From assembly GCA_944472135.2 (NCBI GenBank), contig OX235270.1, forward strand, positions 77,013,168-77,077,167: a stretch of 64,000 nucleotides of DNA, read 5' to 3'. This DNA comes from Trichobilharzia regenti (Eukaryota > Platyhelminthes > Trematoda > Strigeidida > Schistosomatidae). The position numbers and the translations under genes were made by a program. Shown here one piece after another: positions 24,621-58,595 of the stretch. Each line of letters starts with the position of its first letter. Position 1 is the first letter of the stretch. The notes under the pieces were generated by a model that was not told the DNA's origin, did no database searches, and worked only from the letters and a program-made list of their open reading frames with translations.

Positions 24621-24818
24621 GTTGTTTACACATAATGAGATTGATTAATTATTTTCCAAGGCTGTCGGATTGCTAGGCGAGACCTAAACGTCGTGCTACA
24701 CACACACACACACTTAAATAGTGTCTTTTGTGAGTAGATAACAAATTTTCGGCGTTCGCAGAAACTCTGGTGAGACAACTATAGAAACACCGACGTGCCG
24801 ACATCACACAACTCTCAA

Positions 24819-24842
24819 AATCGAAAGTATATGCTTTCGATT
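24819..24842. promoter_or_regulatory. Perfect 9-bp inverted repeat, present in all twelve units
   Basis: AATCGAAAG, a 6-base loop TATATG, then CTTTCGATT. The same hairpin recurs at the same place in every unit, about 106 bp upstream of the TATA box and next to the (TA)n tract. The arms do not vary even where the neighbouring TA tract does. It could bind a dimeric factor or extrude as a cruciform; function is inferred. Confidence 0.6.
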
Positions 24843-24947
24843 ATATACATATATATATATATATACTTATATAAGTAGAACAGCAAACAATTCTCTACAA
24901 TAGATTTTCATTTCTCATGAGTACAGTTAGGATTTGGGTGACACCGC

Positions 24948-24954
24948 TATAAAA
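24948..24954 (+). promoter_or_regulatory. TATA box (one per unit)
   Basis: CTATAAAATAAAAGG, followed by about 110 bp of candidate 5' UTR ending at CTT|GTAAGT (donor at 25064). The motif lies about 434 bp upstream of the exon A ATG and recurs in each unit, for example at 44148 in unit 12. If functional, the array is a row of twelve promoters. Not proven without transcript starts. Confidence 0.5.
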
Positions 24955-25251
24955 TAAAAGGGACAGTCGACATAAAGACGGTAGACGGTGTTTTCGAGTT
25001 GTTATTCATTGCTTGGCATAGTCCGAGTTGTTTTTATCTTCACTTGAGAGTAATTAGGCACTTGTAAGTTATGAGTGGGTTTTGTCGGAGTAAACAGCAG
25101 TTGGCCCCGAGTTCAGACATATTTCCATCGACTTTTATCTTCGGATAATGCCATCAGTCTTCGTGTAATAAGTGTCTCTCATTGATACATATAAAGCTGT
25201 ATCTGTCAACTGATAGTTGAATTTGATTAGCAGTTTAATGTTGTTGTGCAG

Positions 25252-25282
25252 GCTTCCATTTGAAAACACACAAGGGAAGTAG
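25252..25282 (+). other. Candidate 31-nt non-coding exon (per unit)
   Basis: TTGTTGTGCAG precedes and TAG|GTAAAT follows a 31-nt segment lying between the TATA box and exon A in every unit. It has no ATG. It could be an alternative 5' UTR exon; the donor is weak except in unit 9. Confidence 0.35.
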
Positions 25283-25381
25283 GTAAATGATGAGGCAATA
25301 CTCATATGGAAGATGAATAATGTGTGTAGTTATTTTGGAAGTATATAGCGTTTCCTCCTAGTGGTATTTGCATTTTTTCAG

Positions 25382-25453
25382 ATGGCGCGCCGCGAACCAC
25401 ATTCAGAAGAAGTCTGTCATCGACCTGTGGGGAAGTTGACAAAGTCTAGTGAC
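25382..25453 (+). CDS. Exon A, representative copy (unit 1)
   Basis: TTTTTTCAG|ATGG...AGTGAC|GTAAGT. 72 nt, 24 codons, phase 0 at both ends, no stop: MARREPHSEEVCHRPVGKLT followed by KSSD. The ATG sits directly after the acceptor and has G at +4. Identical in the copies I compared. It can be the first coding exon of each unit or, because it is symmetric, an internal exon in a read-through transcript. The protein is basic and hydrophilic, with no known domain. Confidence 0.65.
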
Positions 25454-26035
25454 GTAAGTCTCCTCCATTTGAATTAAAAATGCTTTTCTATACTCTTAAA
25501 TCATATGAGCAGTTGGTAGAAGTAAAAATGTCCTATGCAGTGATTTATTTCGAGTAGTAGTACGTTGCATGTGTACTTGACTTTTTCAGGTCTGAAGCAT
25601 CCGGTATTGTCATGTTATATTGTGTAAGTGCTAAGACAGTTAAGACACCTAGCCATCAGTTTGAAGGACATATGCATCATCTACGATGATTGTAGTGATC
25701 GCCGTAGAATGGGTATGCTGTACAGTGATGAATTGTTGGTTAGAGTTTTTATTGTATTTATAATGTATTGTCATGACTAGAGCTGACTGAATTTTATGGC
25801 GAGAATTGTGGTCATTTTTACAACAAGCCACTACTAGTTTGCAAGTTTATTTTCATGATGTTTGTGAATGAAATCGGTTACAGATAACAAGTGACATTGT
25901 CTACTTGTGCGTAGCATGGCACTTGCGAATAACAATTTGACTTATGTCTGCTCAATTATACGCTTCTATTTGTAATCACACTGCCTGTCCAGAAGTATTT
26001 CACTTTAGTTGTTTTGTTTTTTTCACATTCCATAG

Positions 26036-26128
26036 GATGACGTTCTATGTGTGAGAATGGAACGTCTCAATTCCTTACGGTCATCCTTGTCTAGTAAGAG
26101 ACTTACAACGGACAGCCATGAAGCTGGC
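26036..26128 (+). CDS. Exon B, representative copy (unit 1)
   Basis: TTCCATAG|GATGAC...GCTGGC|GTAAGT. 93 nt, 31 codons, phase 0 at both ends and open only in that frame; the other two frames stop within 18 nt. The encoded start is DDVLCVRMERLNSLRSSLSS. It joins exon A without frame change. The match of open frame, length divisible by three and consensus borders is the main evidence that both are real coding exons. Confidence 0.65.
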
Positions 26129-26363
26129 GTAAGTGTTAGTCCTTGTCAACCGCTTATATTTCAATAACTCTTATCGCTTCATCAAAGTTTTTAATACCAT
26201 ATGCATGATCTATCAACTATTTGGAGTTTTCGATGTGCTTTTGTTTTTTATCTTTTCTTCCTCTGACGAAATACAATATTCAGTCTGGTGATAGCCATTA
26301 TCTCATCCTTTGCCCACGGTTATTTCTAGACAATTTCAGGGCTTGTAGAGAATAAGTCGAATG

Positions 26364-28110
26364 GTTGTTTACACATAATGAGATTGATTAATTATTTTCC
26401 AAGGCTGTCGGATTGCTAGGCGAGACCTAAACGTCGTGCTACACACACACACACACACACTTAAATAGTGTCTTTTGTGAGTAGATAACAAATTTTCGGC
26501 GTTCGCAGAAACTCTGGTGAGACAACTATAGAAACACCGACGTGCCGACATCACACAACTCTCAAAATCGAAAGTATATGCTTTCGATTATATACATATA
26601 TATATATATATACTTATATAAGTAGAACAGCAAACAATTCTCTACAATAGATTTTCATTTCTCATGAGTACAGTTAGGATTTGGGTGACACCGCTATAAA
26701 ATAAAAGGGACAGTCGACATAAAGACGGTAGACGGTGTTTTCGAGTTGTTATTCATTGCTTGGCATAGTCCGAGTTGTTTTTATCTTCACTTGAGAGTAA
26801 TTAGGCACTTGTAAGTTATGAGTGGGTTTTGTCGGAGTAAACAGCAGTTGGCCCCGAGTTCAGACATATTTCCATCGACTTTTATCTTCGGATAATGCCA
26901 TCAGTCTTCGTGTAATAAGTGTCTCTCATTGATACATATAAAGCTGTATCTGTCAACTGATAGTTGAATTTGATTAGCAGTTTAATGTTGTTGTGCAGGC
27001 TTCCATTTGAAAACACACAAGGGAAGTAGGTAAATGATGAGGCAATACTCATATGGAAGATGAATAATGTGTGTAGTTATTTTGGAAGTATATAGCGTTT
27101 CCTCCTAGTGGTATTTGCATTTTTTCAGATGGCGCGCCGCGAACCACATTCAGAAGAAGTCTGTCATCGACCTGTGGGGAAGTTGACAAAGTCTAGTGAC
27201 GTAAGTCTCCTCCATTTGAATTAAAAATGCTTTTCTATACTCTTAAATCATATGAGCAGTTGGTAGAAGTAAAAATGTCCTATGCAGTGATTTATTTCGA
27301 GTAGTAGTACGTTGCATGTGTACTTGACTTTTTCAGGTCTGAAGCATCCGGTATTGTCATGTTATATTGTGTAAGTGCTAAGACAGTTAAGACACCTAGC
27401 CATCAGTTTGAAGGACATATGCATCATCTACGATGATTGTAGTGATCGCCGTAGAATGGGTATGCTGTACAGTGATGAATTGTTGGTTAGAGTTTTTATT
27501 GTATTTATAATGTATTGTCATGACTAGAGCTGACTGAATTTTATGGCGAGAATTGTGGTCATTTTTACAACAAGCCACTACTAGTTTGCAAGTTTATTTT
27601 CATGATGTTTGTGAATGAAATTGGTTACAGATAACAAGTGACATTGTCTACTTGTGCGTAGCATGGTACTTGCGAATAACAATTTGACTTATGTCTGCTC
27701 AATTATACGCTTCTATTTGTAATCACACTGCCTGTCCAGAAGTATTTCACTTTAGTTGTTTTGTTTTTTTCACATTCCATAGGATGACGTTCTATGTGTG
27801 AGAATGGAACGTCTCAATTCCTTACGGTCATCCTTGTCTAGTAAGAGACTTACAACGGACAGCCATGAAGCTGGCGTAAGTGTTAGTCCTTGTCAACCGC
27901 TTATATTTCAATAACTCTTATCGCTTCATCAAAGTTTTTAATACCATATGCATGATCTATCAACTATTTGGAGTTTTCGATGTGCTTTTGTTTTTTATCT
28001 TTTCTTCCTCTGACGAAATACAATATTCAGTCTGGTGATAGCCATTATCTCATCCTTTGCCCACGGTTATTTCTAGACAATTTCAGGGCTTGTAGAGAAT
28101 AAGTCGAATG
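26364..28110 (+). repeat. Array unit 2
   Basis: 1747 bp, (AC)10. Exon A 27129-27200, exon B 27783-27875. Carries the GAAATTGG variant (shared with units 3 and 6). Confidence 0.95.
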
Positions 28111-29853
28111 GTTGTTTACACATAATGAGATTGATTAATTATTTTCCAAGGCTGTCGGATTGCTAGGCGAGACCTAAACGTCGTGCTACACACACACACA
28201 CACACACTTAAATAGTGTCTTTTGTGAGTAGATAACAAATTTTCGGCGTTCGCAGAAACTCTGGTGAGACAACTATAGAAACACCGACGTGCCGACATCA
28301 CACAACTCTCAAAATCGAAAGTATATGCTTTCGATTATATACATATATATATATACTTATATAAGTAGAACAGCAAACAATTCTCTACAATAGATTTTCA
28401 TTTCTCATGAGTACAGTTAGGATTTGGGTGACACCGCTATAAAATAAAAGGGACAGTCGACATAAAGACGGTAGACGGTGTTTTCGAGTTGTTATTCATT
28501 GCTTGGCATAGTCCGAGTTGTTTTTATCTTCACTTGAGAGTAATTAGGCACTTGTAAGTTATGAGTGGGTTTTGTCGGAGTAAACAGCAGTTGGCCCCGA
28601 GTTCAGACATATTTCCATCGACTTTTATCTTCGGATAATGCCATCAGTCTTCGTGTAATAAGTGTCTCTCATTGATACATATAAAGCTGTATCTGTCAAC
28701 TGATAGTTGAATTTGATTAGCAGTTTAATGTTGTTGTGCAGGCTTCCATTTGAAAACACACAAGGGAAGTAGGTAAATGATGAGGCAATACTCATATGGA
28801 AGATGAATAATGTGTGTAGTTATTTTGGAAGTATATAGCGTTTCCTCCTAGTGGTATTTGCATTTTTTCAGATGGCGCGCCGCGAACCACATTCAGAAGA
28901 AGTCTGTCATCGACCTGTGGGGAAGTTGACAAAGTCTAGTGACGTAAGTCTCCTCCATTTGAATTAAAAATGCTTTTCTATACTCTTAAATCATATGAGC
29001 AGTTGGTAGAAGTAAAAATGTCCTATGCAGTGATTTATTTCGAGTAGTAGTACGTTGCATGTGTACTTGACTTTTTCAGGTCTGAAGCATCCGGTATTGT
29101 CATGTTATATTGTGTAAGTGCTAAGACAGTTAAGACACCTAGCCATCAGTTTGAAGGACATATGCATCATCTACGATGATTGTAGTGATCGCCGTAGAAT
29201 GGGTATGCTGTACAGTGATGAATTGTTGGTTAGAGTTTTTATTGTATTTATAATGTATTGTCATGACTAGAGCTGACTGAATTTTATGGCGAGAATTGTG
29301 GTCATTTTTACAACAAGCCACTACTAGTTTGCAAGTTTATTTTCATGATGTTTGTGAATGAAATTGGTTACAGATAACAAGTGACATTGTCTACTTGTGC
29401 GTAGCATGGTACTTGCGAATAACAATTTGACTTATGTCTGCTCAATTATACGCTTCTATTTGTAATCACACTGCCTGTCCAGAAGTATTTCACTTTAGTT
29501 GTTTTGTTTTTTTCACATTCCATAGGATGACGTTCTATGTGTGAGAATGGAACGTCTCAATTCCTTACGGTCATCCTTGTCTAGTAAGAGACTTACAACG
29601 GACAGCCATGAAGCTGGCGTAAGTGTTAGTCCTTGTCAACCGCTTATATTTCAATAACTCTTATCGCTTCATCAAAGTTTTTAATACCATATGCATGATC
29701 TATCAACTATTTGGAGTTTTCGATGTGCTTTTGTTTTTTATCTTCTCTTCCTCTGACGAAATACAATATTCAGTCTGGTGATAGCCATTATCTCATCCTT
29801 TGCCCACGGTTATTTCTAGACAATTTCAGGGCTTGTAGAGAATAAGTCGAATG
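28111..29853 (+). repeat. Array unit 3
   Basis: 1743 bp, (AC)10. Exon A 28872-28943, exon B 29526-29618. Carries both the GAAATTGG variant and the ATCTTCTCTT variant (the latter shared with units 4, 6 and 8). Confidence 0.95.
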
Positions 29854-31604
29854 GTTGTTTACACATAATGAGATTGATTAATTATTTTCCAAGGCTGTCG
29901 GATTGCTAGGCGAGACCTAAACGTCGTGCTACACACACACACACACACACACACACACTTAAATAGTGTCTTTTGTGAGTAGATAACAAATTTTCGGCGT
30001 TCGCAGAAACTCTGGTGAGACAACTATAGAAACACCGACGTGCCGACATCACACAACTCTCAAAATCGAAAGTATATGCTTTCGATTATATACATATATA
30101 TATATACTTATATAAGTAGAACAGCAAACAATTCTCTACAATAGATTTTCATTTCTCATGAGTACAGTTAGGATTTGGGTGACACCGCTATAAAATAAAA
30201 GGGACAGTCGACATAAAGACGGTAGACGGTGTTTTCGAGTTGTTATTCATTGCTTGGCATAGTCCGAGTTGTTTTTATCTTCACTTGAGAGTAATTAGGC
30301 ACTTGTAAGTTATGAGTGGGTTTTGTCGGAGTAAACAGCAGTTGGCCCCGAGTTCAGACATATTTCCATCGACTTTTATCTTCGGATAATGCCATCAGTC
30401 TTCGTGTAATAAGTGTCTCTCATTGATACATATAAAGCTGTATCTGTCAACTGATAGTTGAATTTGATTAGCAGTTTAATGTTGTTGTGCAGGCTTCCAT
30501 TTGAAAACACACAAGGGAAGTAGGTAAATGATGAGGCAATACTCATATGGAAGATGAATAATGTGTGTAGTTATTTTGGAAGTATATAGCGTTTCCTCCT
30601 AGTGGTATTTGCATTTTTTCAGATGGCGCGCCGCGAACCACATTCAGAAGAAGTCTGTCATCGACCTGTGGGGAAGTTGACAAAGTCTAGTGACGTAAGT
30701 CTCCTCCATTTGAATTAAAAATGCTTTTCTATACTCTTAAATCATATGAGCAGTTGGTAGAAGTAAAAATGTCCTATGCAGTGATTTATTTCGAGTAGTA
30801 GTACGTTGCATGTGTACTTGACTTTTTCAGGTCTGAAGCATCCGGTATTGTCATGTTATATTGTGTAAGTGCTAAGACAGTTAAGACACCTAGCCATCAG
30901 TTTGAAGGACATATGCATCATCTACGATGATTGTAGTGATCGCCGTAGAATGGGTATGCTGTACAGTGATGAATTGTTGGTTAGAGTTTTTATTGTATTT
31001 ATAATGTATTGTCATGACTAGAGCTGACTGAATTTTATGGCGAGAATTGTGGTCATTTTTACAACAAGCCACTACTAGTTTGCAAGTTTATTTTCATGAT
31101 GTTTGTGAATGAAATCGGTTACAGATAACAAGTGACATTGTCTACTTGTGCGTAGCATGGTACTTGCGAATAACAATTTGACTTATGTCTGCTCAATTAT
31201 ACGCTTCTATTTGTAATCACACTGCCTGTCCAGAAGTATTTCACTTTAGTTGTTTTGTTTTTTTCACATTCCATAGGATGACGTTCTATGTGTGAGAATG
31301 GAACGTCTCAATTCCTTACGGTCATCCTTGTCTAGTAAGAGACTTACAACGGACAGCCATGAAGCTGGCGTAAGTGTTAGTCCTTGTCAACCGCTTATAT
31401 TTCAATAACTCTTATCGCTTCATCAAAGTTTTTAATACCATATGCATGATCTATCAACTATTTGGAGTTTTCGATGTGCTTTTGTTTTTTATCTTCTCTT
31501 CCTCTGACGAAATACAATATTCAGTCTGGTGATAGCCATTATCTCATCCTTTGCCCACGGTTATTTCTAGACAATTTCAGGGCTTGTAGAGAATAAGTCG
31601 AATG
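29854..31604 (+). repeat. Array unit 4
   Basis: 1751 bp, with the longest dinucleotide run, (AC)14. Exon A 30623-30694, exon B 31277-31369. Confidence 0.95.
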
Positions 31605-33349
31605 GTTGTTTACACATAATGAGATTGATTAATTATTTTCCAAGGCTGTCGGATTGCTAGGCGAGACCTAAACGTCGTGCTACACACACACACACACACA
31701 CACTTAAATAGTGTCTTTTGTGAGTAGATAACAAATTTTCGGCGTTCGCAGAAACTCTGGTGAGACAACTATAGAAACACCGACGTGCCGACATCACACA
31801 ACTCTCAAAATCGAAAGTATATGCTTTCGATTATATACATATATATATATACTTATATAAGTAGAACAGCAAACAATTCTCTACAATAGATTTTCATTTC
31901 TCATGAGTACAGTTAGGATTTGGGTGACACCGCTATAAAATAAAAGGGACAGTCGACATAAAGACGGTAGACGGTGTTTTCGAGTTGTTATTCATTGCTT
32001 GGCATAGTCCGAGTTGTTTTTATCTTCACTTGAGAGTAATTAGGCACTTGTAAGTTATGAGTGGGTTTTGTCGGAGTAAACAGCAGTTGGCCCCGAGTTC
32101 AGACATATTTCCATCGACTTTTATCTTCGGATAATGCCATCAGTCTTCGTGTAATAAGTGTCTCTCATTGATACATATAAAGCTGTATCTGTCAACTGAT
32201 AGTTGAATTTGATTAGCAGTTTAATGTTGTTGTGCAGGCTTCCATTTGAAAACACACAAGGGAAGTAGGTAAATGATGAGGCAATACTCATATGGAAGAT
32301 GAATAATGTGTGTAGTTATTTTGGAAGTATATAGCGTTTCCTCCTAGTGGTATTTGCATTTTTTCAGATGGCGCGCCGCGAACCACATTCAGAAGAAGTC
32401 TGTCATCGACCTGTGGGGAAGTTGACAAAGTCTAGTGACGTAAGTCTCCTCCATTTGAATTAAAAATGCTTTTCTATACTCTTAAATCATATGAGCAGTT
32501 GGTAGAAGTAAAAATGTCCTATGCAGTGATTTATTTCGAGTAGTAGTACGTTGCATGTGTACTTGACTTTTTCAGGTCTGAAGCATCCGGTATTGTCATG
32601 TTATATTGTGTAAGTGCTAAGACAGTTAAGACACCTAGCCATCAGTTTGAAGGACATATGCATCATCTACGATGATTGTAGTGATCGCCGTAGAATGGGT
32701 ATGCTGTACAGTGATGAATTGTTGGTTAGAGTTTTTATTGTATTTATAATGTATTGTCATGACTAGAGCTGACTGAATTTTATGGCGAGAATTGTGGTCA
32801 TTTTTACAACAAGCCACTACTAGTTTGCAAGTTTATTTTCATGATGTTTGTGAATGAAATCGGTTACAGATAACAAGTGACATTGTCTACTTGTGCGTAG
32901 CATGGTACTTGCGAATAACAATTTGACTTATGTCTGCTCAATTATACGCTTCTATTTGTAATCACACTGCCTGTCCAGAAGTATTTCACTTTAGTTGTTT
33001 TGTTTTTTTCACATTCCATAGGATGACGTTCTATGTGTGAGAATGGAACGTCTCAATTCCTTACGGTCATCCTTGTCTAGTAAGAGACTTACAACGGACA
33101 GCCATGAAGCTGGCGTAAGTGTTAGTCCTTGTCAACCGCTTATATTTCAATAACTCTTATCGCTTCATCAAAGTTTTTAATACCATATGCATGATCTATC
33201 AACTATTTGGAGTTTTCGATGTGCTTTTGTTTTTTATCTTTTCTTCCTCTGACGAAATACAATATTCAGTCTGGTGATAGCCATTATCTCATCCTTTGCC
33301 CACGGTTATTTCTAGACAATTTCAGGGCTTGTAGAGAATAAGTCGAATG
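31605..33349 (+). repeat. Array unit 5
   Basis: 1745 bp, (AC)11. Exon A 32368-32439, exon B 33022-33114. Confidence 0.95.
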
Positions 33350-35092
33350 GTTGTTTACACATAATGAGATTGATTAATTATTTTCCAAGGCTGTCGGATT
33401 GCTAGGCGAGACCTAAACGTCGTGCTACACACACACACACACACACTTAAATAGTGTCTTTTGTGAGTAGATAACAAATTTTCGGCGTTCGCAGAAACTC
33501 TGGTGAGACAACTATAGAAACACCGACGTGCCGACATCACACAACTCTCAAAATCGAAAGTATATGCTTTCGATTATATACATATATATATATACTTATA
33601 TAAGTAGAACAGCAAACAATTCTCTACAATAGATTTTCATTTCTCATGAGTACAGTTAGGATTTGGGTGACACCGCTATAAAATAAAAGGGACAGTCGAC
33701 ATAAAGACGGTAGACGGTGTTTTCGAGTTGTTATTCATTGCTTGGCATAGTCCGAGTTGTTTTTATCTTCACTTGAGAGTAATTAGGCACTTGTAAGTTA
33801 TGAGTGGGTTTTGTCGGAGTAAACAGCAGTTGGCCCCGAGTTCAGACATATTTCCATCGACTTTTATCTTCGGATAATGCCATCAGTCTTCGTGTAATAA
33901 GTGTCTCTCATTGATACATATAAAGCTGTATCTGTCAACTGATAGTTGAATTTGATTAGCAGTTTAATGTTGTTGTGCAGGCTTCCATTTGAAAACACAC
34001 AAGGGAAGTAGGTAAATGATGAGGCAATACTCATATGGAAGATGAATAATGTGTGTAGTTATTTTGGAAGTATATAGCGTTTCCTCCTAGTGGTATTTGC
34101 ATTTTTTCAGATGGCGCGCCGCGAACCACATTCAGAAGAAGTCTGTCATCGACCTGTGGGGAAGTTGACAAAGTCTAGTGACGTAAGTCTCCTCCATTTG
34201 AATTAAAAATGCTTTTCTATACTCTTAAATCATATGAGCAGTTGGTAGAAGTAAAAATGTCCTATGCAGTGATTTATTTCGAGTAGTAGTACGTTGCATG
34301 TGTACTTGACTTTTTCAGGTCTGAAGCATCCGGTATTGTCATGTTATATTGTGTAAGTGCTAAGACAGTTAAGACACCTAGCCATCAGTTTGAAGGACAT
34401 ATGCATCATCTACGATGATTGTAGTGATCGCCGTAGAATGGGTATGCTGTACAGTGATGAATTGTTGGTTAGAGTTTTTATTGTATTTATAATGTATTGT
34501 CATGACTAGAGCTGACTGAATTTTATGGCGAGAATTGTGGTCATTTTTACAACAAGCCACTACTAGTTTGCAAGTTTATTTTCATGATGTTTGTGAATGA
34601 AATTGGTTACAGATAACAAGTGACATTGTCTACTTGTGCGTAGCATGGTACTTGCGAATAACAATTTGACTTATGTCTGCTCAATTATACGCTTCTATTT
34701 GTAATCACACTGCCTGTCCAGAAGTATTTCACTTTAGTTGTTTTGTTTTTTTCACATTCCATAGGATGACGTTCTATGTGTGAGAATGGAACGTCTCAAT
34801 TCCTTACGGTCATCCTTGTCTAGTAAGAGACTTACAACGGACAGCCATGAAGCTGGCGTAAGTGTTAGTCCTTGTCAACCGCTTATATTTCAATAACTCT
34901 TATCGCTTCATCAAAGTTTTTAATACCATATGCATGATCTATCAACTATTTGGAGTTTTCGATGTGCTTTTGTTTTTTATCTTCTCTTCCTCTGACGAAA
35001 TACAATATTCAGTCTGGTGATAGCCATTATCTCATCCTTTGCCCACGGTTATTTCTAGACAATTTCAGGGCTTGTAGAGAATAAGTCGAATG
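33350..35092 (+). repeat. Array unit 6
   Basis: 1743 bp, (AC)10. Exon A 34111-34182, exon B 34765-34857. Has the same two variants as unit 3, three units away. Confidence 0.95.
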
Positions 35093-36837
35093 GTTGTTTA
35101 CACATAATGAGATTGATTAATTATTTTCCAAGGCTGTCGGATTGCTAGGCGAGACCTAAACGTCGTGCTAACACACACACACACACACACTTAAATAGTG
35201 TCTTTTGTGAGTAGATAACAAATTTTCGGCGTTCGCAGAAACTCTGGTGAGACAACTATAGAAACACCGACGTGCCGACATCACACAACTCTCAAAATCG
35301 AAAGTATATGCTTTCGATTTATATATATATATATATATACTTATATAAGTAGAACAGCAAACAATTCTCTACAATAGATTTTCATTTCTCATGAGTACAG
35401 TTAGGATTTGGGTGACACCGCTATAAAATAAAAGGGACAGTCGACATAAAGACGGTAGACGGTGTTTTCGAGTTGTTATTCATTGCTTGGCATAGTCCGA
35501 GTTGTTTTTATCTTCACTTGAGAGTAATTAGGCACTTGTAAGTTATGAGTGGGTTTTGTCGGAGTAAACAGCAGTTGGCCCCGAGTTCAGACATATTTCC
35601 ATCGACTTTTATCTTCGGATAATGCCATCAGTCTTCGTGTAATAAGTGTCTCTCATTGATACATATAAAGCTGTATCTGTCAACTGATAGTTGAATTTGA
35701 TTAGCAGTTTAATGTTGTTGTGCAGGCTTCCATTTGAAAACACACAAGGGAAGTAGGTAAATGATGAGGCAATACTCATATGGAAGATGAATAATGTGTG
35801 TAGTTATTTTGGAAGTATATAGCGTTTCCTCCTAGTGGTATTTGCATTTTTTCAGATGGCGCGCCGCGAACCACATTCAGAAGAAGTCTGTCATCGACCT
35901 GTGGGGAAGTTGACAAAGTCTAGTGACGTAAGTCTCCTCCATTTGAATTAAAAATGCTTTTCTATACTCTTAAATCATATGAGCAGTTGGTAGAAGTAAA
36001 AATGTCCTATGCAGTGATTTATTTCGAGTAGTAGTACGTTGCATGTGTACTTGACTTTTTCAGGTCTGAAGCATCCGGTATTGTCATGTTATATTGTGTA
36101 AGTGCTAAGACAGTTAAGACACCTAGCCATCAGTTTGAAGGACATATGCATCATCTACGATGATTGTAGTGATCGCCGTAGAATGGGTATGCTGTACAGT
36201 GATGAATTGTTGGTTAGAGTTTTTATTGTATTTATAATGTATTGTCATGACTAGAGCTGACTGAATTTTATGGCGAGAATTGTGGTCATTTTTACAACAA
36301 GCCACTACTAGTTTGCAAGTTTATTTTCATGATGTTTGTGAATGAAATCGGTTACAGATAACAAGTGACATTGTCTACTTGTGCGTAGCATGGTACTTGC
36401 GAATAACAATTTGACTTATGTCTGCTCAATTATACGCTTCTATTTGTAATCACACTGCCTGTCCAGAAGTATTTCACTTTAGTTGTTTTGTTTTTTTCAC
36501 ATTCCATAGGATGACGTTCTATGTGTGAGAATGGAACGTCTCAATTCCTTACGGTCATCCTTGTCTAGTAAGAGACTTACAACGGACAGCCATGAAGCTG
36601 GCGTAAGTGTTAGTCCTTGTCAACCGCTTATATTTCAATAACTCTTATCGCTTCATCAAAGTTTTTAATACCATATGCATGATCTATCAACTATTTGGAG
36701 TTTTCGATGTGCTTTTGTTTTTTATCTTTTCTTCCTCTGACGAAATACAATATTCAGTCTGGTGATAGCCATTATCTCATCCTTTGCCCACGGTTATTTC
36801 TAGACAATTTCAGGGCTTGTAGAGAATAAGTCGAATG
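35093..36837 (+). repeat. Array unit 7
   Basis: 1745 bp. An extra A before (AC)10 (GCTAACAC) and a changed start of the TA tract (CGATTTATATAT). Exon A 35856-35927, exon B 36510-36602. Confidence 0.95.
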
Positions 36838-38591
36838 GTTGTTTACACATAATGAGATTGATTAATTATTTTCCAAGGCTGTCGGATTGCTAGGCGAGAC
36901 CTAAACGTCGTGCTACACACACACACACACACACACTTAAATAGTGTCTTTTGTGAGTAGATAACAAATTTTCGGCGTTCGCAGAAACTCTGGTGAGACA
37001 ACTATAGAAACACCGACGTGCCGACATCACACAACTCTCAAAATCGAAAGTATATGCTTTCGATTATATACTATATATATATATATATATATACTTATAT
37101 AAGTAGAACAGCAAACAATTCTCTACAATAGATTTTCATTTCTCATGAGTACAGTTAGGATTTGGGTGACACCGCTATAAAATAAAAGGGACAGTCGACA
37201 TAAAGACGGTAGACGGTGTTTTCGAGTTGTTATTCATTGCTTGGCATAGTCCGAGTTGTTTTTATCTTCACTTGAGAGTAATTAGGCACTTGTAAGTTAT
37301 GAGTGGGTTTTGTCGGAGTAAACAGCAGTTGGCCCCGAGTTCAGACATATTTCCATCGACTTTTATCTTCGGATAATGCCATCAGTCTTCGTGTAATAAG
37401 TGTCTCTCATTGATACATATAAAGCTGTATCTGTCAACTGATAGTTGAATTTGATTAGCAGTTTAATGTTGTTGTGCAGGCTTCCATTTGAAAACACACA
37501 AGGGAAGTAGGTAAATGATGAGGCAATACTCATATGGAAGATGAATAATGTGTGTAGTTATTTTGGAAGTATATAGCGTTTCCTCCTAGTGGTATTTGCA
37601 TTTTTTCAGATGGCGCGCCGCGAACCACATTCAGAAGAAGTCTGTCATCGACCTGTGGGGAAGTTGACAAAGTCTAGTGACGTAAGTCTCCTCCATTTGA
37701 ATTAAAAATGCTTTTCTATACTCTTAAATCATATGAGCAGTTGGTAGAAGTAAAAATGTCCTATGCAGTGATTTATTTCGAGTAGTAGTACGTTGCATGT
37801 GTACTTGACTTTTTCAGGTCTGAAGCATCCGGTATTGTCATGTTATATTGTGTAAGTGCTAAGACAGTTAAGACACCTAGCCATCAGTTTGAAGGACATA
37901 TGCATCATCTACGATGATTGTAGTGATCGCCGTAGAATGGGTATGCTGTACAGTGATGAATTGTTGGTTAGAGTTTTTATTGTATTTATAATGTATTGTC
38001 ATGACTAGAGCTGACTGAATTTTATGGCGAGAATTGTGGTCATTTTTACAACAAGCCACTACTAGTTTGCAAGTTTATTTTCATGATGTTTGTGAATGAA
38101 ATCGGTTACAGATAACAAGTGACATTGTCTACTTGTGCGTAGCATGGTACTTGCGAATAACAATTTGACTTATGTCTGCTCAATTATACGCTTCTATTTG
38201 TAATCACACTGCCTGTCCAGAAGTATTTCACTTTAGTTGTTTTGTTTTTTTCACATTCCATAGGATGACGTTCTATGTGTGAGAATGGAACGTCTCAATT
38301 CCTTACGGTCATCCTTGTCTAGTAAGAGACTTACAACGGACAGCCATGAAGCTGGCGTAAGTGTTAGTCCTTGTCAACCGCTTATATTTCAATAACTCTT
38401 ATCGCTTCATCAAAGTTTTTAATACCATATGCATGATCTATCAACTATTTGGAGTTTTCGATGTGCTTTTGTTTTTTATCTTCTCTTCCTCTGACGAAAT
38501 ACAATATTCAGTCTGGTGATAGCCATTATCTCATCCTTTGCCCACGGTTATTTCTAGACAATTTCAGGGCTTGTAGAGAATAAGTCGAATG
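36838..38591 (+). repeat. Array unit 8
   Basis: 1754 bp, the longest unit, because of an expanded and altered TA tract (ATATACTATATAT) and (AC)11. Exon A 37610-37681, exon B 38264-38356. Confidence 0.95.
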
Positions 38592-40340
38592 GTTGTTTAC
38601 ACATAATGAGATTGATTAATTATTTTCCAAGGCTGTCGGATTGCTAGGCGAGACCTAAACGTCGTGCTACACACACACACACACACACACACTTAAATAG
38701 TGTCTTTTGTGAGTAGATAACAAATTTTCGGCGTTCGCAGAAACTCTGGTGAGACAACTATAGAAACACCGACGTGCCGACATCACACAACTCTCAAAAT
38801 CGAAAGTATATGCTTTCGATTATATACATATATATATATATACTTATATAAGTAGAACAGCAAACAATTCTCTACAATAGATTTTCATTTCTCATGAGTA
38901 CAGTTAGGATTTGGGTGACACCGCTATAAAATAAAAGGGACAGTCGACATAAAGACGGTAGACGGTGTTTTCGAGTTGTTATTCATTGCTTGGCATAGTC
39001 CGAGTTGTTTTTATCTTCACTTGAGAGTAATTAGGCACTTGTAAGTTATGAGTGGGTTTTGTCGGAGTAAACAGCAGTTGGCCCCGAGTTCAGACATATT
39101 TCCATCGACTTTTATCTTCGGATAATGCCATCAGTCTTCGTGTAATAAGTGTCTCTCATTGATACATATAAAGCTGTATCTGTCAACTGATAGTTGAATT
39201 TGATTAGCAGTTTAATGTTGTTGTGCAGGCTTCCATTTGAAAACACACAAGGGAAGTAGGTAAGTGATGAGGCAATACTCATATGGAAGATGAATAATGT
39301 GTGTAGTTATTTTGGAAGTATATAGCGTTTCCTCCTAGTGGTATTTGCATTTTTTCAGATGGCGCGCCGCGAACCACATTCAGAAGAAGTCTGTCATCGA
39401 CCTGTGGGGAAGTTGACAAAGTCTAGTGACGTAAGTCTCCTCCATTTGAATTAAAAATGCTTTTCTATACTCTTAAATCATATGAGCAGTTGGTAGAAGT
39501 AAAAATGTCCTATGCAGTGATTTATTTCGAGTAGTAGTACGTTGCATGTGTACTTGACTTTTTCAGGTCTGAAGCATCCGGTATTGTCATGTTATATTGT
39601 GTAAGTGCTAAGACAGTTAAGACACCTAGCCATCAGTTTGAAGGACATATGCATCATCTACGATGATTGTAGTGATCGCCGTAGAATGGGTATGCTGTAC
39701 AGTGATGAATTGTTGGTTAGAGTTTTTATTGTATTTATAATGTATTGTCATGACTAGAGCTGACTGAATTTTATGGCGAGAATTGTGGTCATTTTTACAA
39801 CAAGCCACTACTAGTTTGCAAGTTTATTTTCATGATGTTTGTGAATGAAATCGGTTACAGATAACAAGTGACATTGTCTACTTGTGCGTAGCATGGTACT
39901 TGCGAATAACAATTTGACTTATGTCTGCTCAATTATACGCTTCTATTTGTAATCACACTGCCTGTCCAGAAGTATTTCACTTTAGTTGTTTTGTTTTTTT
40001 CACATTCCATAGGATGACGTTCTATGTGTGAGAATGGAACGTCTCAATTCCTTACGGTCATCCTTGTCTAGTAAGAGACTTACAACGGACAGCCATGAAG
40101 CTGGCGTAAGTGTTAGTCCTTGTCAACCGCTTATATTTCAATAACTCTTATCGCTTCATCAAAGTTTTTAATACCATATGCATGATCTATCAACTATTTG
40201 GAGTTTTCGATGTGCTTTTGTTTTTTATCTTTTCTTCCTCTGACGAAATACAATATTCAGTCTGGTGATAGCCATTATCTCATCCTTTGCCCACGGTTAT
40301 TTCTAGACAATTTCAGGGCTTGTAGAGAATAAGTCGAATG
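38592..40340 (+). repeat. Array unit 9
   Basis: 1749 bp, (AC)12. Exon A 39359-39430, exon B 40013-40105. Private A-to-G change at the donor of the 31-nt candidate 5' UTR exon: TAG|GTAAGT in place of TAG|GTAAAT near 39260, a closer match to the splice consensus. Confidence 0.95.
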
Positions 40341-42081
40341 GTTGTTTACACATAATGAGATTGATTAATTATTTTCCAAGGCTGTCGGATTGCTAGGCGA
40401 GACCTAAACGTCGTGCTACACACACACACACACACTTAAATAGTGTCTTTTGTGAGTAGATAACAAATTTTCGGCGTTCGCAGAAACTCTGGTGAGACAA
40501 CTATAGAAACACCGACGTGCCGACATCACACAACTCTCAAAATCGAAAGTATATGCTTTCGATTATATACATATATATATATACTTATATAAGTAGAACA
40601 GCAAACAATTCTCTACAATAGATTTTCATTTCTCATGAGTACAGTTAGGATTTGGGTGACACCGCTATAAAATAAAAGGGACAGTCGACATAAAGACGGT
40701 AGACGGTGTTTTCGAGTTGTTATTCATTGCTTGGCATAGTCCGAGTTGTTTTTATCTTCACTTGAGAGTAATTAGGCACTTGTAAGTTATGAGTGGGTTT
40801 TGTCGGAGTAAACAGCAGTTGGCCCCGAGTTCAGACATATTTCCATCGACTTTTATCTTCGGATAATGCCATCAGTCTTCGTGTAATAAGTGTCTCTCAT
40901 TGATACATATAAAGCTGTATCTGTCAACTGATAGTTGAATTTGATTAGCAGTTTAATGTTGTTGTGCAGGCTTCCATTTGAAAACACACAAGGGAAGTAG
41001 GTAAATGATGAGGCAATACTCATATGGAAGATGAATAATGTGTGTAGTTATTTTGGAAGTATATAGCGTTTCCTCCTAGTGGTATTTGCATTTTTTCAGA
41101 TGGCGCGCCGCGAACCACATTCAGAAGAAGTCTGTCATCGACCTGTGGGGAAGTTGACAAAGTCTAGTGACGTAAGTCTCCTCCATTTGAATTAAAAATG
41201 CTTTTCTATACTCTTAAATCATATGAGCAGTTGGTAGAAGTAAAAATGTCCTATGCAGTGATTTATTTCGAGTAGTAGTACGTTGCATGTGTACTTGACT
41301 TTTTCAGGTCTGAAGCATCCGGTATTGTCATGTTATATTGTGTAAGTGCTAAGACAGTTAAGACACCTAGCCATCAGTTTGAAGGACATATGCATCATCT
41401 ACGATGATTGTAGTGATCGCCGTAGAATGGGTATGCTGTACAGTGATGAATTGTTGGTTAGAGTTTTTATTGTATTTATAATGTATTGTCATGACTAGAG
41501 CTGACTGAATTTTATGGCGAGAATTGTGGTCATTTTTACAACAAGCCACTACTAGTTTGCAAGTTTATTTTCATGATGTTTGTGAATGAAATCGGTTACA
41601 GATAACAAGTGACATTGTCTACTTGTGCGTAGCATGGTACTTGCGAATAACAATTTGACTTATGTCTGCTCAATTATACGCTTCTATTTGTAATCACACT
41701 GCCTGTCCAGAAGTATTTCACTTTAGTTGTTTTGTTTTTTTCACATTCCATAGGATGACGTTCTATGTGTGAGAATGGAACGTCTCAATTCCTTACGGTC
41801 ATCCTTGTCTAGTAAGAGACTTACAACGGACAGCCATGAAGCTGGCGTAAGTGTTAGTCCTTGTCAACCGCTTATATTTCAATAACTCTTATCGCTTCAT
41901 CAAAGTTTTTAATACCATATGCATGATCTATCAACTATTTGGAGTTTTCGATGTGCTTTTGTTTTTTATCTTTTCTTCCTCTGACGAAATACAATATTCA
42001 GTCTGGTGATAGCCATTATCTCATCCTTTGCCCACGGTTATTTCTAGACAATTTCAGGGCTTGTAGAGAATAAGTCGAATG
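40341..42081 (+). repeat. Array unit 10
   Basis: 1741 bp, (AC)9. Exon A 41100-41171, exon B 41754-41846. Units 10-12 share this short form and are probably the youngest copies. Confidence 0.95.
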
Positions 42082-43822
42082 GTTGTTTACACATAATGAG
42101 ATTGATTAATTATTTTCCAAGGCTGTCGGATTGCTAGGCGAGACCTAAACGTCGTGCTACACACACACACACACACTTAAATAGTGTCTTTTGTGAGTAG
42201 ATAACAAATTTTCGGCGTTCGCAGAAACTCTGGTGAGACAACTATAGAAACACCGACGTGCCGACATCACACAACTCTCAAAATCGAAAGTATATGCTTT
42301 CGATTATATACATATATATATATACTTATATAAGTAGAACAGCAAACAATTCTCTACAATAGATTTTCATTTCTCATGAGTACAGTTAGGATTTGGGTGA
42401 CACCGCTATAAAATAAAAGGGACAGTCGACATAAAGACGGTAGACGGTGTTTTCGAGTTGTTATTCATTGCTTGGCATAGTCCGAGTTGTTTTTATCTTC
42501 ACTTGAGAGTAATTAGGCACTTGTAAGTTATGAGTGGGTTTTGTCGGAGTAAACAGCAGTTGGCCCCGAGTTCAGACATATTTCCATCGACTTTTATCTT
42601 CGGATAATGCCATCAGTCTTCGTGTAATAAGTGTCTCTCATTGATACATATAAAGCTGTATCTGTCAACTGATAGTTGAATTTGATTAGCAGTTTAATGT
42701 TGTTGTGCAGGCTTCCATTTGAAAACACACAAGGGAAGTAGGTAAATGATGAGGCAATACTCATATGGAAGATGAATAATGTGTGTAGTTATTTTGGAAG
42801 TATATAGCGTTTCCTCCTAGTGGTATTTGCATTTTTTCAGATGGCGCGCCGCGAACCACATTCAGAAGAAGTCTGTCATCGACCTGTGGGGAAGTTGACA
42901 AAGTCTAGTGACGTAAGTCTCCTCCATTTGAATTAAAAATGCTTTTCTATACTCTTAAATCATATGAGCAGTTGGTAGAAGTAAAAATGTCCTATGCAGT
43001 GATTTATTTCGAGTAGTAGTACGTTGCATGTGTACTTGACTTTTTCAGGTCTGAAGCATCCGGTATTGTCATGTTATATTGTGTAAGTGCTAAGACAGTT
43101 AAGACACCTAGCCATCAGTTTGAAGGACATATGCATCATCTACGATGATTGTAGTGATCGCCGTAGAATGGGTATGCTGTACAGTGATGAATTGTTGGTT
43201 AGAGTTTTTATTGTATTTATAATGTATTGTCATGACTAGAGCTGACTGAATTTTATGGCGAGAATTGTGGTCATTTTTACAACAAGCCACTACTAGTTTG
43301 CAAGTTTATTTTCATGATGTTTGTGAATGAAATCGGTTACAGATAACAAGTGACATTGTCTACTTGTGCGTAGCATGGTACTTGCGAATAACAATTTGAC
43401 TTATGTCTGCTCAATTATACGCTTCTATTTGTAATCACACTGCCTGTCCAGAAGTATTTCACTTTAGTTGTTTTGTTTTTTTCACATTCCATAGGATGAC
43501 GTTCTATGTGTGAGAATGGAACGTCTCAATTCCTTACGGTCATCCTTGTCTAGTAAGAGACTTACAACGGACAGCCATGAAGCTGGCGTAAGTGTTAGTC
43601 CTTGTCAACCGCTTATATTTCAATAACTCTTATCGCTTCATCAAAGTTTTTAATACCATATGCATGATCTATCAACTATTTGGAGTTTTCGATGTGCTTT
43701 TGTTTTTTATCTTTTCTTCCTCTGACGAAATACAATATTCAGTCTGGTGATAGCCATTATCTCATCCTTTGCCCACGGTTATTTCTAGACAATTTCAGGG
43801 CTTGTAGAGAATAAGTCGAATG
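42082..43822 (+). repeat. Array unit 11
   Basis: 1741 bp, (AC)9. Exon A 42841-42912, exon B 43495-43587. Confidence 0.95.
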
Positions 43823-45549
43823 GTTGTTTACACATAATGAGATTGATTAATTATTTTCCAAGGCTGTCGGATTGCTAGGCGAGACCTAAACGTCGTGCTA
43901 CACACACACACACACACTTAAATAGTGTCTTTTGTGAGTAGATAACAAATTTTCGGCGTTCGCAGAAACTCTGGTGAGACAACTATAGAAACACCGACGT
44001 GCCGACATCACACAACTCTCAAAATCGAAAGTATATGCTTTCGATTATATACATATATATATATACTTATATAAGTAGAACAGCAAACAATTCTCTACAA
44101 TAGATTTTCATTTCTCATGAGTACAGTTAGGATTTGGGTGACACCGCTATAAAATAAAAGGGACAGTCGACATAAAGACGGTAGACGGTGTTTTCGAGTT
44201 GTTATTCATTGCTTGGCATAGTCCGAGTTGTTTTTATCTTCACTTGAGAGTAATTAGGCACTTGTAAGTTATGAGTGGGTTTTGTCGGAGTAAACAGCAG
44301 TTGGCCCCGAGTTCAGACATATTTCCATCGACTTTTATCTTCGGATAATGCCATCAGTCTTCGTGTAATAAGTGTCTCTCATTGATACATATAAAGCTGT
44401 ATCTGTCAACTGATAGTTGAATTTGATTAGCAGTTTAATGTTGTTGTGCAGGCTTCCATTTGAAAACACACAAGGGAAGTAGGTAAATGATGAGGCAATA
44501 CTCATATGGAAGATGAATAATGTGTGTAGTTATTTTGGAAGTATATAGCGTTTCCTCCTAGTGGTATTTGCATTTTTTCAGATGGCGCGCCGCGAACCAC
44601 ATTCAGAAGAAGTCTGTCATCGACCTGTGGGGAAGTTGACAAAGTCTAGTGACGTAAGTCTCCTCCATTTGAATTAAAAATGCTTTTCTATACTCTTAAA
44701 TCATATGAGCAGTTGGTAGAAGTAAAAATGTCCTATGCAGTGATTTATTTCGAGTAGTAGTACGTTGCATGTGTACTTGACTTTTTCAGGTCTGAAGCAT
44801 CCGGTATTGTCATGTTATATTGTGTAAGTGCTAAGACAGTTAAGACACCTAGCCATCAGTTTGAAGGACATATGCATCATCTACGATGATTGTAGTGATC
44901 GCCGTAGAATGGGTATGCTGTACAGTGATGAATTGTTGGTTAGAGTTTTTATTGTATTTATAATGTATTGTCATGACTAGAGCTGACTGAATTTTATGGC
45001 GAGAATTGTGGTCATTTTTACAACAAGCCACTACTAGTTTGCAAGTTTATTTTCATGATGTTTGTGAATGAAATCGGTTACAGATAACAAGTGACATTGT
45101 CTACTTGTGCGTAGCATGGTACTTGCGAATAACAATTTGACTTATGTCTGCTCAATTATACGCTTCTATTTGTAATCACACTGCCTGTCCAGAAGTATTT
45201 CACTTTAGTTGTTTTGTTTTTTTCACATTCCATAGGATGACGTTCTATGTGTGAGAATGGAACGTCTCAATTCCTTACGGTCATCCTTGTCTAGTAAGAG
45301 ACTTACAACGGACAGCCATGAAGCTGGCGTAAGTGTTAGTCCTTGTCAACCGCTTATATTTCAATAACTATTATCGCTTCATCAAAGTTTTTAATACCAT
45401 ATGCATGATCTATCAACTATTTGGAGTTTTCGATGTGCTTTTGTTTTTTATCTTTTCTTCCTCTGACGAAATACAATATTCAGTCTGGTGATAGCCATTA
45501 TCTCATCCTTTGCCCACGGTTATTTCTAGACAATTTCAGAGCTTGTAGA
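43823..45549 (+). repeat. Array unit 12, joined to single-copy gene
   Basis: (AC)9. Exon A 44582-44653, exon B 45236-45328. Private C-to-A change (AACTATTATCGC near 45367) and G-to-A at 45540, which creates an extra AG at the acceptor of the next exon. Similarity to the other units stops at about 45549, inside that exon. Confidence 0.95.
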
Positions 45550-48500
45550 AATCATGTCAAAAGAAGGGGAAAATCGAGGAAACACTGTTCGCCTTCGTTT
45601 CCGTGAGCTGCCGAACAGAAGACGTCCCCGTGGTTTTTCTGGTGTGGAAAACGAATTGGGAGATGGCAACATTTCCAACAAAAATGCGTGTGATTCTTCT
45701 GGAGCATGTGAAGAGAAATGTGGAATGTCTTCTATCGGATCACCGGGTTGTAGTCATCGTCGTATTTCGATAACCGCTTCGAGTAATGCAAATACCGATC
45801 ATTGCAGGGCAAATATTGGTCGACGGTAACTTTTTGTAGTGTACATTTAATATGTTCTTTCTGTTAGGATTTTGAGTTATCTGGTTCCCAACTTGTGATA
45901 GACTGAAGTATAAAGCAATACGGTCTATGCACTTGTCTATTTACCTATATGGGAAGAATGGCTTTTACATTTGTGGTGTCTGTGAAGGCTGTAGGTATTT
46001 GATTGGTAGCTGTGATTCAGGCATCAACTAGGTAACGTGTTGTTAAGTAAAACAGTTGAAGCAGTTAAGGATAATGTGATACATCTTATGAATTATTCTA
46101 TATATGGCATTAATTGTTTTGCCACTTCTTATCTAACTATGACTATAATCACAAACATTTTAATTGCATTTCGTCCTATTATTATATTATTATGCATTGC
46201 CAGCTATGATTCAATTTCCTCACCGGATATACTTTCTTAAAAGCCATATATGCGTGGTTGTACAGCTTGATAATAAATTCGTTGTTGAAAAGAATGTCTT
46301 CACTGACTCACTTGTTTCGGCTGTTTTATATGTCCCAATAGGGATTTTCCATGATAGACATCTATCATGTGATGTAGCTTGGGTGTGCCTATAACAACCA
46401 TTTACTTCGACGAACTGTATTAAATGAAGTAAGATTAAACTGGTGGGGTGGCTGAGGTGGCTACACCTAGATGTGATGGAAGTCCATTCAGTACTTAACA
46501 GTTAATCTATGCGGTTTATGGAAGAGTAGATTGCGTGTTCTGAATCCACATGGCTACGTCAAACCACGTCTTGGAATTACTTGCAATAGCGCTGATGTGG
46601 TCTTACTTTATTTTTCCTTTTAATAAAATATTTCCTGTCTGCATATTCACGATGCGTTTTTTCTACGACATACTATCTTCTTATTATCCATGGTTTCATT
46701 TTGATGTGCTCTTATTGCCTGTTACTCGATATGGTGATATGCGGTATGATGACTTGTACAGTGGTGATAGATGTAGAACTGTTATAGTCTAAATGTATTG
46801 CTAGATATATAGGTGTACTAATGCTTATCTCAGGTGGGAACACTCTGTTGATGATAGGTGTTGGTGGTGAGAAATTTATGCTTTTTATGACCATCTATAT
46901 GCATACTGGTGAGTCATTCTTGAGTTATTGATCCAGCAGACTGAAGTAGGACCATGTTTTATAATCCCATGCAGCTGGAAACTGCGAAGTTGGAAAGAAT
47001 CAGATATTTTCAAATTTAGGTTTATTTATCTTGGTCACTTGGTATGTGGTCTGTTTTCTAGCGATTAGTGAGCCACATGGAATAGCATTACATTTTTTTA
47101 TTGCCAGGTGTGCCGAATATGCAGGCGTAGTATTTACTTGAAGGTAGTTTTTATCACGGAAAGTTACGCTGGCTAGTTACGTTTGAGGTTGATGGGACAA
47201 TGATTTATGAGTCTCGTGTTGATTGACTTTAGACTTGTCAAATGACAACTGATATAGGGATGAGTTTGAATGCTTAGACTATCCAGTGTTTATTTCTGCT
47301 TTCATGTGACCATGACTTAAAATCATATGTATCTTGATGAATTAGAATGTATACGCTACACCTATTGTACAGATGGTAATGCTACTAATTTGCTGTTCAC
47401 ATGTTGGTAAATAGAGTAGAGAAATGTGGCTCATCGGCTTATTGGCACAGCTTCATCTTGGGTAACTGGACATTATCATCAGCGCTCACACACACGCATG
47501 CACACGGTGGATGTGATTGTCAGCCTGGTACACAACAAATCTATCCTAAGTAACTAAGTTTCCACTAAGTGAATGTAATTGATTTGAGAGACATGATCAA
47601 CTTGATTATCTGCTTTCACTCAACTGTGTTATGGTATATTTGTTACTTGTCTTTCTTTCCAACGATAAATTACTGTAATTCTTTGTTTGCAGAAAAGCCG
47701 TTGCAAAAAGAAATCCGTGTTCACCACCCACAAGAAAAGTATCTTTCAAGTCTGAGAGCATTGATAAATATGCTACTTGCAGCTCTCGGAAGAAATTGCG
47801 AACGCAAACTTTGAAGGTAAAACGAAGGTCGGTAGCCACTCCAGTTAGTTCAGTAATCCCCTCCAAAGGTATGTATAGATTCACATAATTTTCACTTTGA
47901 TTTCGGAAAAATACATTTTCGGTTGAGTAAACGAGGGTTTCATGTGCAGTATTGTTTCTGTTATATGCTTAGTGTCTTTTATTTTCTTCTGACTAGTAAA
48001 GTAATTTAGTCACAGTGGTGTGTATGAGTGCGTGTTTTGTCATTTTACTTCAGTATGGGAATGGTCTTATCAAATTGATAAGTTGTGTTGTGAAAAATGT
48101 GCTTTTTTTCTCTTTAGCCTTTTGGCAGTAATCATGATGAAATTGTCAGTGTAGGTTTATGACTGTCAACAGCCGGACGTGATGGGATAACGCCAGATAT
48201 ACTTAAGGAGGGTAGTGATGAAGTGTTGTTTGGGTTAACTAAAGTACTAAGGGGTTTCTGTGAATCAGAGATGCATCCATGGAACTGGTGTAAATGATTG
48301 ATTATGGGAGTGTATAAAAAGGAGTCAAGTCTTTGTGTGATAATCATGGAGGATCAGCTTGACTAAGACAGTGGTCCTGCGTAGACCGAGCGGTGATCGG
48401 GAGAAACAAACCCTGGAAAAACTGTTCGGGCTTTAGGCCAGGGATGGAGTGTATTGATGATGTCTTCATCTGTCGACAGGATACATGGGATGCTTTATTT

Positions 48501-52330: not shown

Positions 52331-52487
52331 TTCTAAAACGACTTGTCGTCAGAAATGTACTGTTGTATATATCTTTGTATTTGTAATTGCGTGTACAATT
52401 TAATTGCTTAAAATACTCACATTTCCATGTGTTATTTTTTTGTTGTTGTTGCGCTATTAATGGTGATTGTCATCGGGATTTTCGAAT

Positions 52488-52591
52488 GTTCCTGAAATCA
52501 CTACATGGTACTTTTCTACCGGAACTTTGGCAAGATCATACAGGTCAACCTCCTTTAGTGTCTGACTTTATTAAGTTTTTATGCAATTATG
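52488..52591 (+). CDS. Possible exon of unknown gene
   Basis: ATG followed by an open run MFLKSLHGTFLPELWQDHTG then QPPLVSDFIKFLCNY, ending at ATG|GTAAGT, a strong donor. Codon use looks more protein-like than its surroundings. No AG acceptor precedes it for about 90 bp, so it would be a first exon, or a shorter exon starting after CATACAG at 52542. No partner exon was found downstream. Confidence 0.3.
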
Positions 52592-52739: not shown

Positions 52740-54240
52740 GAAGCTGACTGACGTTAACTCGTTTCTGTTTGTCACCTCTTCGGATGGTATATACTTGACC
52801 CCGTCTTTTTGTGATTTTTTATGGTCCTTCCCACTTTGAAAGGAATGTCCGTGAACCTAGCCCGCATCCAACTGCATATCTTCTGTCTCTACACTTCATT
52901 TGGTCCCCGACAGCAAAGGTAATGCACTCAATCTTCCCTTTCAGCTGAGACTTCGCGACATCACTCCGCTGCTTCTATATTACATTCTTGACTGCTTCTT
53001 TCCGCTCTGCTTTTAATTTCGTCTTACTCCACTTTTGGTGAGTGGGCCAGGTCTCGTTGTGTATCGGTAATCGTGTTTTTCTACCATACATCAGTTGAAA
53101 GGGTGACTTCTTCGTTGTTTCCTGAGTGGTAGCACGATGTGCTAGTAAAATCAGTGGAAGCTCCGTTTCCCAGTTACCGCTCTTCGAGGCCAGCCACTCC
53201 TTCAGTGTACAGTTGTTTCTCCCCGTTAGGCTATTCGTTTGTGGATGATATGGGGTCCTTCTGATCCTCTTGATGCCCAACTGAAGTAAATTCTTCACTT
53301 TCGAAACAGGGACTTTGTTCTATCAGTATTGTCTTTGGTACGCCGTGGTCTGCAACAATGTGTCTAACTACTGCATCTGTCACTGTCCTTGCATGTTGGT
53401 CTGGGATTGCTACGGCGTCTACCCATCGTGTCGCGTGTTCTGTCATCATCAAGGGGTACTGATTACCATTGGATGTCTGAGGAAACAGACCCATAACATC
53501 TACGGACCACAAGTCACCTATCGCCGTAAATGAAATCGACTGAAGCAGTGGTCGTATGCACCGGTCGCCTTTCATTAGCTGGCACCGTGGACATCCAAGT
53601 ACGTATCTTGCTACGTCTTCTCTCATACCTGGCCAGTACATACTTTGTCTTAGGAGGTTGGTTTTTCTGGCCACGTCTGTATGTGCTAGCTGGTGACATT
53701 GTTCTATCATGTCGTGGCGCGACGATTGAGGTATGACAGCCAGCCAGCTTCCGTCGTTCTCTCGCCAGGTCAGAGTCTCGTAGGCATTCACTCTTAGTCG
53801 ATCTCTCTGTCAGAGTAGTGTGGTTAGCTCCTTACTCGCTGTAAATTGATCCACTTCTATTCCGTTGGTGATCACCTGTATCACTGTATTCAGCGTATCG
53901 TCCAACCTTTGCCTGCGTGCGAGTCTTAGTTGATCTTATTCTACTGCATGCACTCCGTAAGCGACCTCAGGCAACTCAGACTCGTCTTCTGGTCTCGATA
54001 ACAAATCTGCCAAGACTTTTTCACTTCCAGGAACGTGTGAGATCGTAAAATCGTACTCCTGAAGACGCAACATCCACCGTGACAATTTCCCCCGTGGGTC
54101 TCTCACTGTCTTCAAACTGTAGCGGCTTATGATTAGTTTCGATGTGGAACCGCCGGCCGAATAAATAAGGTCTCCATTTGTCGACTGCCCATACCATTGC
54201 TAAACATTCTTTCTCTATCGTTGAATACTTTCGCACTCAT
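52740..54240 (-). pseudogene. pol: Second gypsy element, RNase H and integrase remnant, minus strand
   Basis: Minus-strand order: RNase [21 protein letters not shown] then [17 protein letters not shown] (54236-54100); integrase zinc site HQLAHTDVARK with MYWPGMREDVARYVLGCPRC (53700-53600); the core from DLWSVDVMG onward; and a separate overlapping frame RRTPYHPQTNSLTGRNN followed by CTLKEWL (53250-53165). The core position normally Asp in TDQG reads IEQS, and the catalytic Glu in the usual VERFN reads TGRNN, so the integrase is dead. Distinct from the gypsy element at 1640-18134 by its integrase sequence. No LTR seen. Confidence 0.8.
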
Positions 54241-58380: not shown

Positions 58381-58595
58381 TTGTAAACAGACCAAACATC
58401 CTTCAACTACATAGCTATGTAACAGGCTCACGGGTAAGCTCTTGTCCGTTGTTACGTCCTCAACTTTTGTTATTCATCTCTTCTCCGTTGTCTGTAAACA
58501 AACTATCGACTGAAGTTTATTCACATGTGTTTAGATGTTCTGAACTAGCCGCTGATTTTCAAACTCGAATTTTAACCGTCCTACCACAGCTTTGA

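Follow-up and report, generated by a model that had tools for sequence, protein, structure and literature searches.

Twelve near-identical cassettes of a putative promoter and first coding exons upstream of one set of downstream exons in Trichobilharzia regenti

Introduction

Why should a gene have twelve successive copies of its putative promoter and first coding exons, and only one set of its remaining exons? This question is raised by a locus within the window, by which we mean the whole 64,000-nucleotide stretch of Trichobilharzia regenti DNA analyzed here. A first-pass annotation of the letters proposed that such an arrangement might raise promoter dosage, produce many truncated proteins or feed a protein with a variable number of repeats. 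As read from the sequence, the anatomy fits all three outcomes. We find that the array is real and odd, beyond what chance would give, and that the gene copy carrying it looks partly broken.

Results

Structure and uniformity of the array

The array consists of 12 head-to-tail units of ~1.74 kb each (Table 1). A repeat search reveals 12 direct copies in register with a spacing of 1741-1754, and a BLAST search of the window with unit 12 as the query returns 12 contiguous matches at 99.1-100% identity, so that the twelvefold amplification claimed in the first-pass annotation is borne out. Unit 1 is incomplete at its start, matching from unit base 12 onward, and was trimmed at 24621 for the unit alignment, whose variant columns are given in unit 12 coordinates.

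In this alignment, the units differ in the lengths of (AC)n and (AT)n, in one single-base insertion (44044, unit 7) and in six single-base substitution columns (44052, 44487, 45075, 45120, 45370 and 45455). The mean pairwise difference among units is 0.0009, with a maximum of 3 for any pair; units 10-12 have the same length, and neighbors among them differ by 0 and 1. Variant 45075 is common to units 2, 3 and 6 and variant 45455 to units 3, 4, 6 and 8, non-adjacent units in both cases, which points to exchange inside the array. Variants private to one unit are seen in units 1, 7, 9 and 12, inner and end units alike, and the ends are therefore not favored.

The inner unit boundaries reveal how the units are joined. 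Here, approximately the first 20 nt of exon C (with one base different) are fused to left-flank-like sequence, the likeness to the left flank at the unit starts being interrupted by two mismatches, both in the first bases. We therefore place the array breakpoint inside exon C.

Table 1. Features of the array and of the downstream single-copy exons (window positions)
Feature	Position	Strand	Basis or remark
12-unit direct tandem array	24608-45539	+	repeat search, BLAST, unit alignment
Upstream putative promoter segment, unit 12	43884-44141	+	similar segment inverted at C4
TATA-like TATAAAATAAAA, unit 12	44148-44159	+	read from sequence
Putative 5' UTR exon, unit 12	44188-44263	+	C4 homology from 44188; start site inferred
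Exon A, 72 nt, phase 0-0, unit 12	44582-44653	+	identical in 12/12 units
Candidate 34-nt microexon, unit 12	44790-44823	+	in all 12 units and C4
Exon B, 93 nt, phase 0-0, unit 12	45236-45328	+	identical in 12/12 units
Exon C, 296 nt, single-copy	45530-45825	+	array breakpoint at about its first 20 nt
Exon D, 176 nt, single-copy, open in frame	47693-47868	+	frame check
Exon E remnant	52450-52590	+	lacks the acceptor AG that C4 has
Exon F counterpart	58076-58432	+	early stop in a frame open in C4

Unit anatomy and coding potential

The two small open exons with splice borders reported earlier are found, with acceptor and donor, in every unit: exon A reads CAG/ATG ... GAC/GTAAGT and exon B reads TAG/GAT ... 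GGC/GTAAGT. Upstream, the donor GTAAGT at 44264 ends the putative 5' UTR exon of unit 12. The reported TATA box corresponds to a TATA-like TATAAAATAAAA, inside which an AATAAA sits at 44153, while the hairpin said to lie in each unit takes the form of a repeat (44023-44046) whose arms are 12 bp long, next to an AT-rich palindrome. The candidate microexon has the form TTTTTCAG/.../GTAAGT, with its ATG in frame with exon B. We note that it lies within a 79-nt run identical between C8, the contig of the array, and C4, the longest such run among six intron segments examined; 103 of 5000 column shuffles of its intron reached this length. Rfam gave no match within the window at gathering scores.

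As the first-pass annotation stated, the last unit runs without break into single-copy exons: unit 12, exon C and exon D form one open frame, exons A-D amount to 212 residues in all, and (A+B)n+C+D stays open at every n tried (1, 2 and 12). Were the array transcribed, exons C and D would directly follow unit 12 and no other unit. The exon start proposed at 45542 is a possible acceptor and in frame, but the acceptor shared with C4 lies 12 nt earlier, at 45530 (TAG/ACA). Read through, the exon C stub of an inner unit gives 29 residues and then a stop; an inner unit using its own stub would encode 24+31+29 = 84 residues before stopping.

Outside the array, open frames at 12235-13821 (-), 48816-50898 (+), 10623-11555 (+) and 53231-53809 (-) of the window resemble retrotransposon reverse transcriptase or integrase.

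A single-copy relative on C4

The single-copy form that the first-pass annotation proposed seeking in other fluke genomes is present in the same genome, on the minus strand at C4:59.69 Mb, the array copy being at C8:77.06 Mb. It is collinear with the window from 44188, just downstream of the TATA-like box, as far as the end of the window, with insertions on either side, and the aligned introns are ~92% identical. Its exons A (72 nt), B (342 nt), C (296 nt), D (176 nt), E (162 nt) and F (367 nt) are all open in one frame. Exon B of the array copy is a net 249 nt shorter and lacks a ubiquitin-interacting-motif-like (UIM-like) stretch. The view of a 5' gene segment amplified with one 3' end thus gains support from the C4 relative, but that of an intact gene does not, given the lost exon E acceptor and the early stop in exon F. 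Sequence comparison indicates that the array copy is probably a diverged duplicate of the C4 gene, which is itself single-copy. A processed retrocopy was rejected: introns are retained and align with C4.

Across the genome searched (954 Mb, 548 contigs), the 121-nt exon A probe recovers the 12 units, a single C4 place (90% identity) and a partial place of 38 bp (14 of 14 candidates scored; counts are lower bounds). On this exon A probe, satellite DNA was rejected, in keeping with the earlier description of the array as no ordinary satellite. Exon C DNA matches C8, once at this locus, and C4 only (C4 at 79% over 250 of 290 nt), and no third copy was seen in the genome with either exon as the query. 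The 38-bp partial place is at C8:29.07 Mb, where a stretch of 106 nt from the A-B intron (L014:1501-1606), 94.5% identical, also lies beside other repeated sequence.

At C4, a segment like the putative promoter segment is found in inverted orientation ~2.4 kb ahead of the gene; directly oriented homology picks up again immediately past the TATA-like box, and no second copy of the segment was found within 230 kb of C4 sequence. This arrangement would fit an inversion that had one of its breaks near the promoter, an independent repeat copy being the alternative. Separately, window positions 3569-3987 have five matches spaced ~2.1 kb apart on C4, ~115 kb downstream of C4 exon F (156-165 kb of the joined C4 sequence), which suggests another tandem array there.

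Divergence between the two copies

Between 44188 and 58800, the exons are more changed than the neighboring aligned introns, at synonymous as well as nonsynonymous sites. Pooled codons (A, C33-98, D and F1-60, leaving out C1-32, B, E and the remainder of F) differ at ~80 of 477 nonsynonymous and ~22 of 147 synonymous sites, compared with 318 of 4113 sites in the aligned intron pieces counted (Fisher, p 1.5e-9 and 0.0046, respectively). Codons C1-32 are still more diverged (pS 0.48, pN 0.34), and exon E has a pS of 0.21 and a pN of 0.07. Simple positive selection was not adopted as an explanation, pN and pS both being above the introns. The pattern is unusual and suggests either intron homogenization, which conversion between the loci could bring about, or diversifying change.

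By exon, dN/dS is 1.33 (A), 0.93 (C), 1.07 (D) and 0.31 (E). In a neutral simulation, drift keeps exons A, C and D open with a chance of 0.01-0.24, a range set by the assumed branch share and rate; under this model, their retention of length and frame may be read as a weak sign of constraint.

Gene identity

The UIM-like stretch of C4 exon B was searched against the PDB (177635 distinct sequences; 7 matches at E<=10). The best four of the seven matches are to JARID2, all weak (E 0.041-0.37), followed by proteasome subunit 4 and Vps27. The C4 A-E protein has no PDB match at E<=1 and the exon E/F piece none at E<=10; in Pfam, the C4 protein has a sub-threshold NYD-SP28 match and the window protein none. 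The genome holds at least six ARID and at least 12 JmjC places, and among those listed none was found near C4:59.69 Mb or C8:77.06 Mb, the single JmjC place listed on C4 being 5.3 Mb away from the relative.

Human JARID2 query pieces gave two matches in 230 kb of C4 (E 0.52 and 1.0) and one in the window (E 0.70), all judged to be chance. The ARID-like C4 match (E 0.52) has stops close by and no clear donor, and a laxer scan gave nothing convincing among its best 50 hits. The same pieces match better at C3:41.65 Mb (L041; E 2.5e-7 and 7e-4) and on C1 (L042; E 3e-7), loci that we take to be rather KDM5-like, and this counts against C4 as a full JARID2 gene. JARID2 as the whole gene is therefore unsupported and this identity not established: neither ARID nor JmjC was found near either locus, and the C3 locus is the better fit to JARID2/KDM5. 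A weak likeness to the JARID2 N-terminus lies in the C4 exon B stretch, which the array copy lacks. C4 may provisionally be described as a gene carrying a JARID2-like N-terminal motif.

Discussion

We favor, as reasonably probable, a partial tandem duplication broken inside exon C, homogenized by exchange and situated in a relaxed or truncated paralogue. From the structure and uniformity of the array, both observed directly, we infer the mechanism: a break upstream of the promoter could have been linked with a second one near nucleotide 20 of exon C, a joining that would give a 1.74-kb direct duplication of promoter, UTR exon, exons A and B and an exon C stub, and unequal exchange could then have expanded it to twelve units and kept them uniform. 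Unit starts that join ~20 nt of exon C to left-flank-like sequence, a collinear single-copy relative and the restriction of exon C DNA to two genomic places all agree with partial duplication, as do near-identical units with variants common to non-adjacent ones, which exchange predicts; the unique variants of inner units 7 and 9, with ends not favored, speak against exchange. With exons E and F impaired in comparison with C4, even the longest product would most likely be truncated, and we regard relaxed constraint on the locus as probable, in preference to selection for dosage. The dN/dS values of exons A, C and D point the same way. Against relaxation stand the simulated chance of keeping these exons in length and frame, the low dN/dS of exon E and the excess of exon over intron divergence, unforeseen under plain decay.

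Other readings account for parts of the evidence. A promoter-dosage cluster under selection, with twelve identical promoters, one 3' end and long splicing past the inner units, would raise output or spread start sites; it would resemble a variable-first-exon cluster with identical first exons. Each of the 12 units retains an intact TATA-like box, UTR exon and exons A and B, and the A-D frame is open, exons A, C and D showing a weak sign of constraint. However, the inner units hold competing exon C stubs with acceptors, and exons E and F are damaged, and we regard this reading as unlikely. Those same stubs, open for 29 codons before a stop, and the AATAAA inside the next unit's TATA-like box, a putative polyadenylation signal, would instead suit eleven mini-genes, each giving the 84-residue protein, perhaps as a decoy of the C4 protein; the tail, which originates in upstream sequence, may owe its open frame to chance, which leaves the mini-genes quite unlikely.

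Splicing of exon B to the next unit's exon A would yield a variable-repeat protein in which a block of 55 residues recurs up to 12 times. Phase 0-0 exons with acceptor and donor and the open (A+B)n+C+D frames permit it, but splicing must skip every exon C stub and UTR exon and transcription must read past each AATAAA, and inclusion of the candidate microexon after exon A leads to a stop; we find such a protein improbable. That the units are almost identical could also betray an assembly artefact, an explanation made very hard to credit by differing microsatellite lengths and single bases, by variants common to non-adjacent units and by the position of the array on a 166-Mb contig.

A further, doubtful reading is that of a new architecture, in which twelve identical promoter-plus-first-exon cassettes share one 3' end and copy number, which could change by unequal exchange, sets output or the count of 55-residue blocks. 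The locus offers a clear natural example of a 5' gene cassette that is repeated while its single-copy form is present in the same genome. Consequently, promoter dosage, splice choice among identical exons and concerted evolution could become directly readable here from RNA and long reads.

Known systems repeat one or the other part of such a cassette. In arrays of rDNA spacer promoters, several promoters precede a single gene, and in intragenic coding repeats of the LPA type, phase-compatible exons are multiplied; the array described here differs from both in repeating a putative promoter and coding exons together. Among the papers listed, our literature search found no description of identical repeated promoter-plus-exon cassettes and did find the UGT1 kind. 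According to passages of PMC1885805 and PMC3325998, multiple-variable-first-exon clusters (UGT1, GCNT2, protocadherins) have tandem first exons with their own promoters and shared downstream exons. The likeness lies in the one shared downstream set, exon C being present once here and once on C4 and the frame continuing into it, and it would extend to the tandem first exons with putative promoters of the 12 units. The difference lies in the first exons, which diversify the protein in those clusters and are identical here (A and B in 12 of 12 units), and in the unit itself, which comprises several exons and a stub of the first shared exon.
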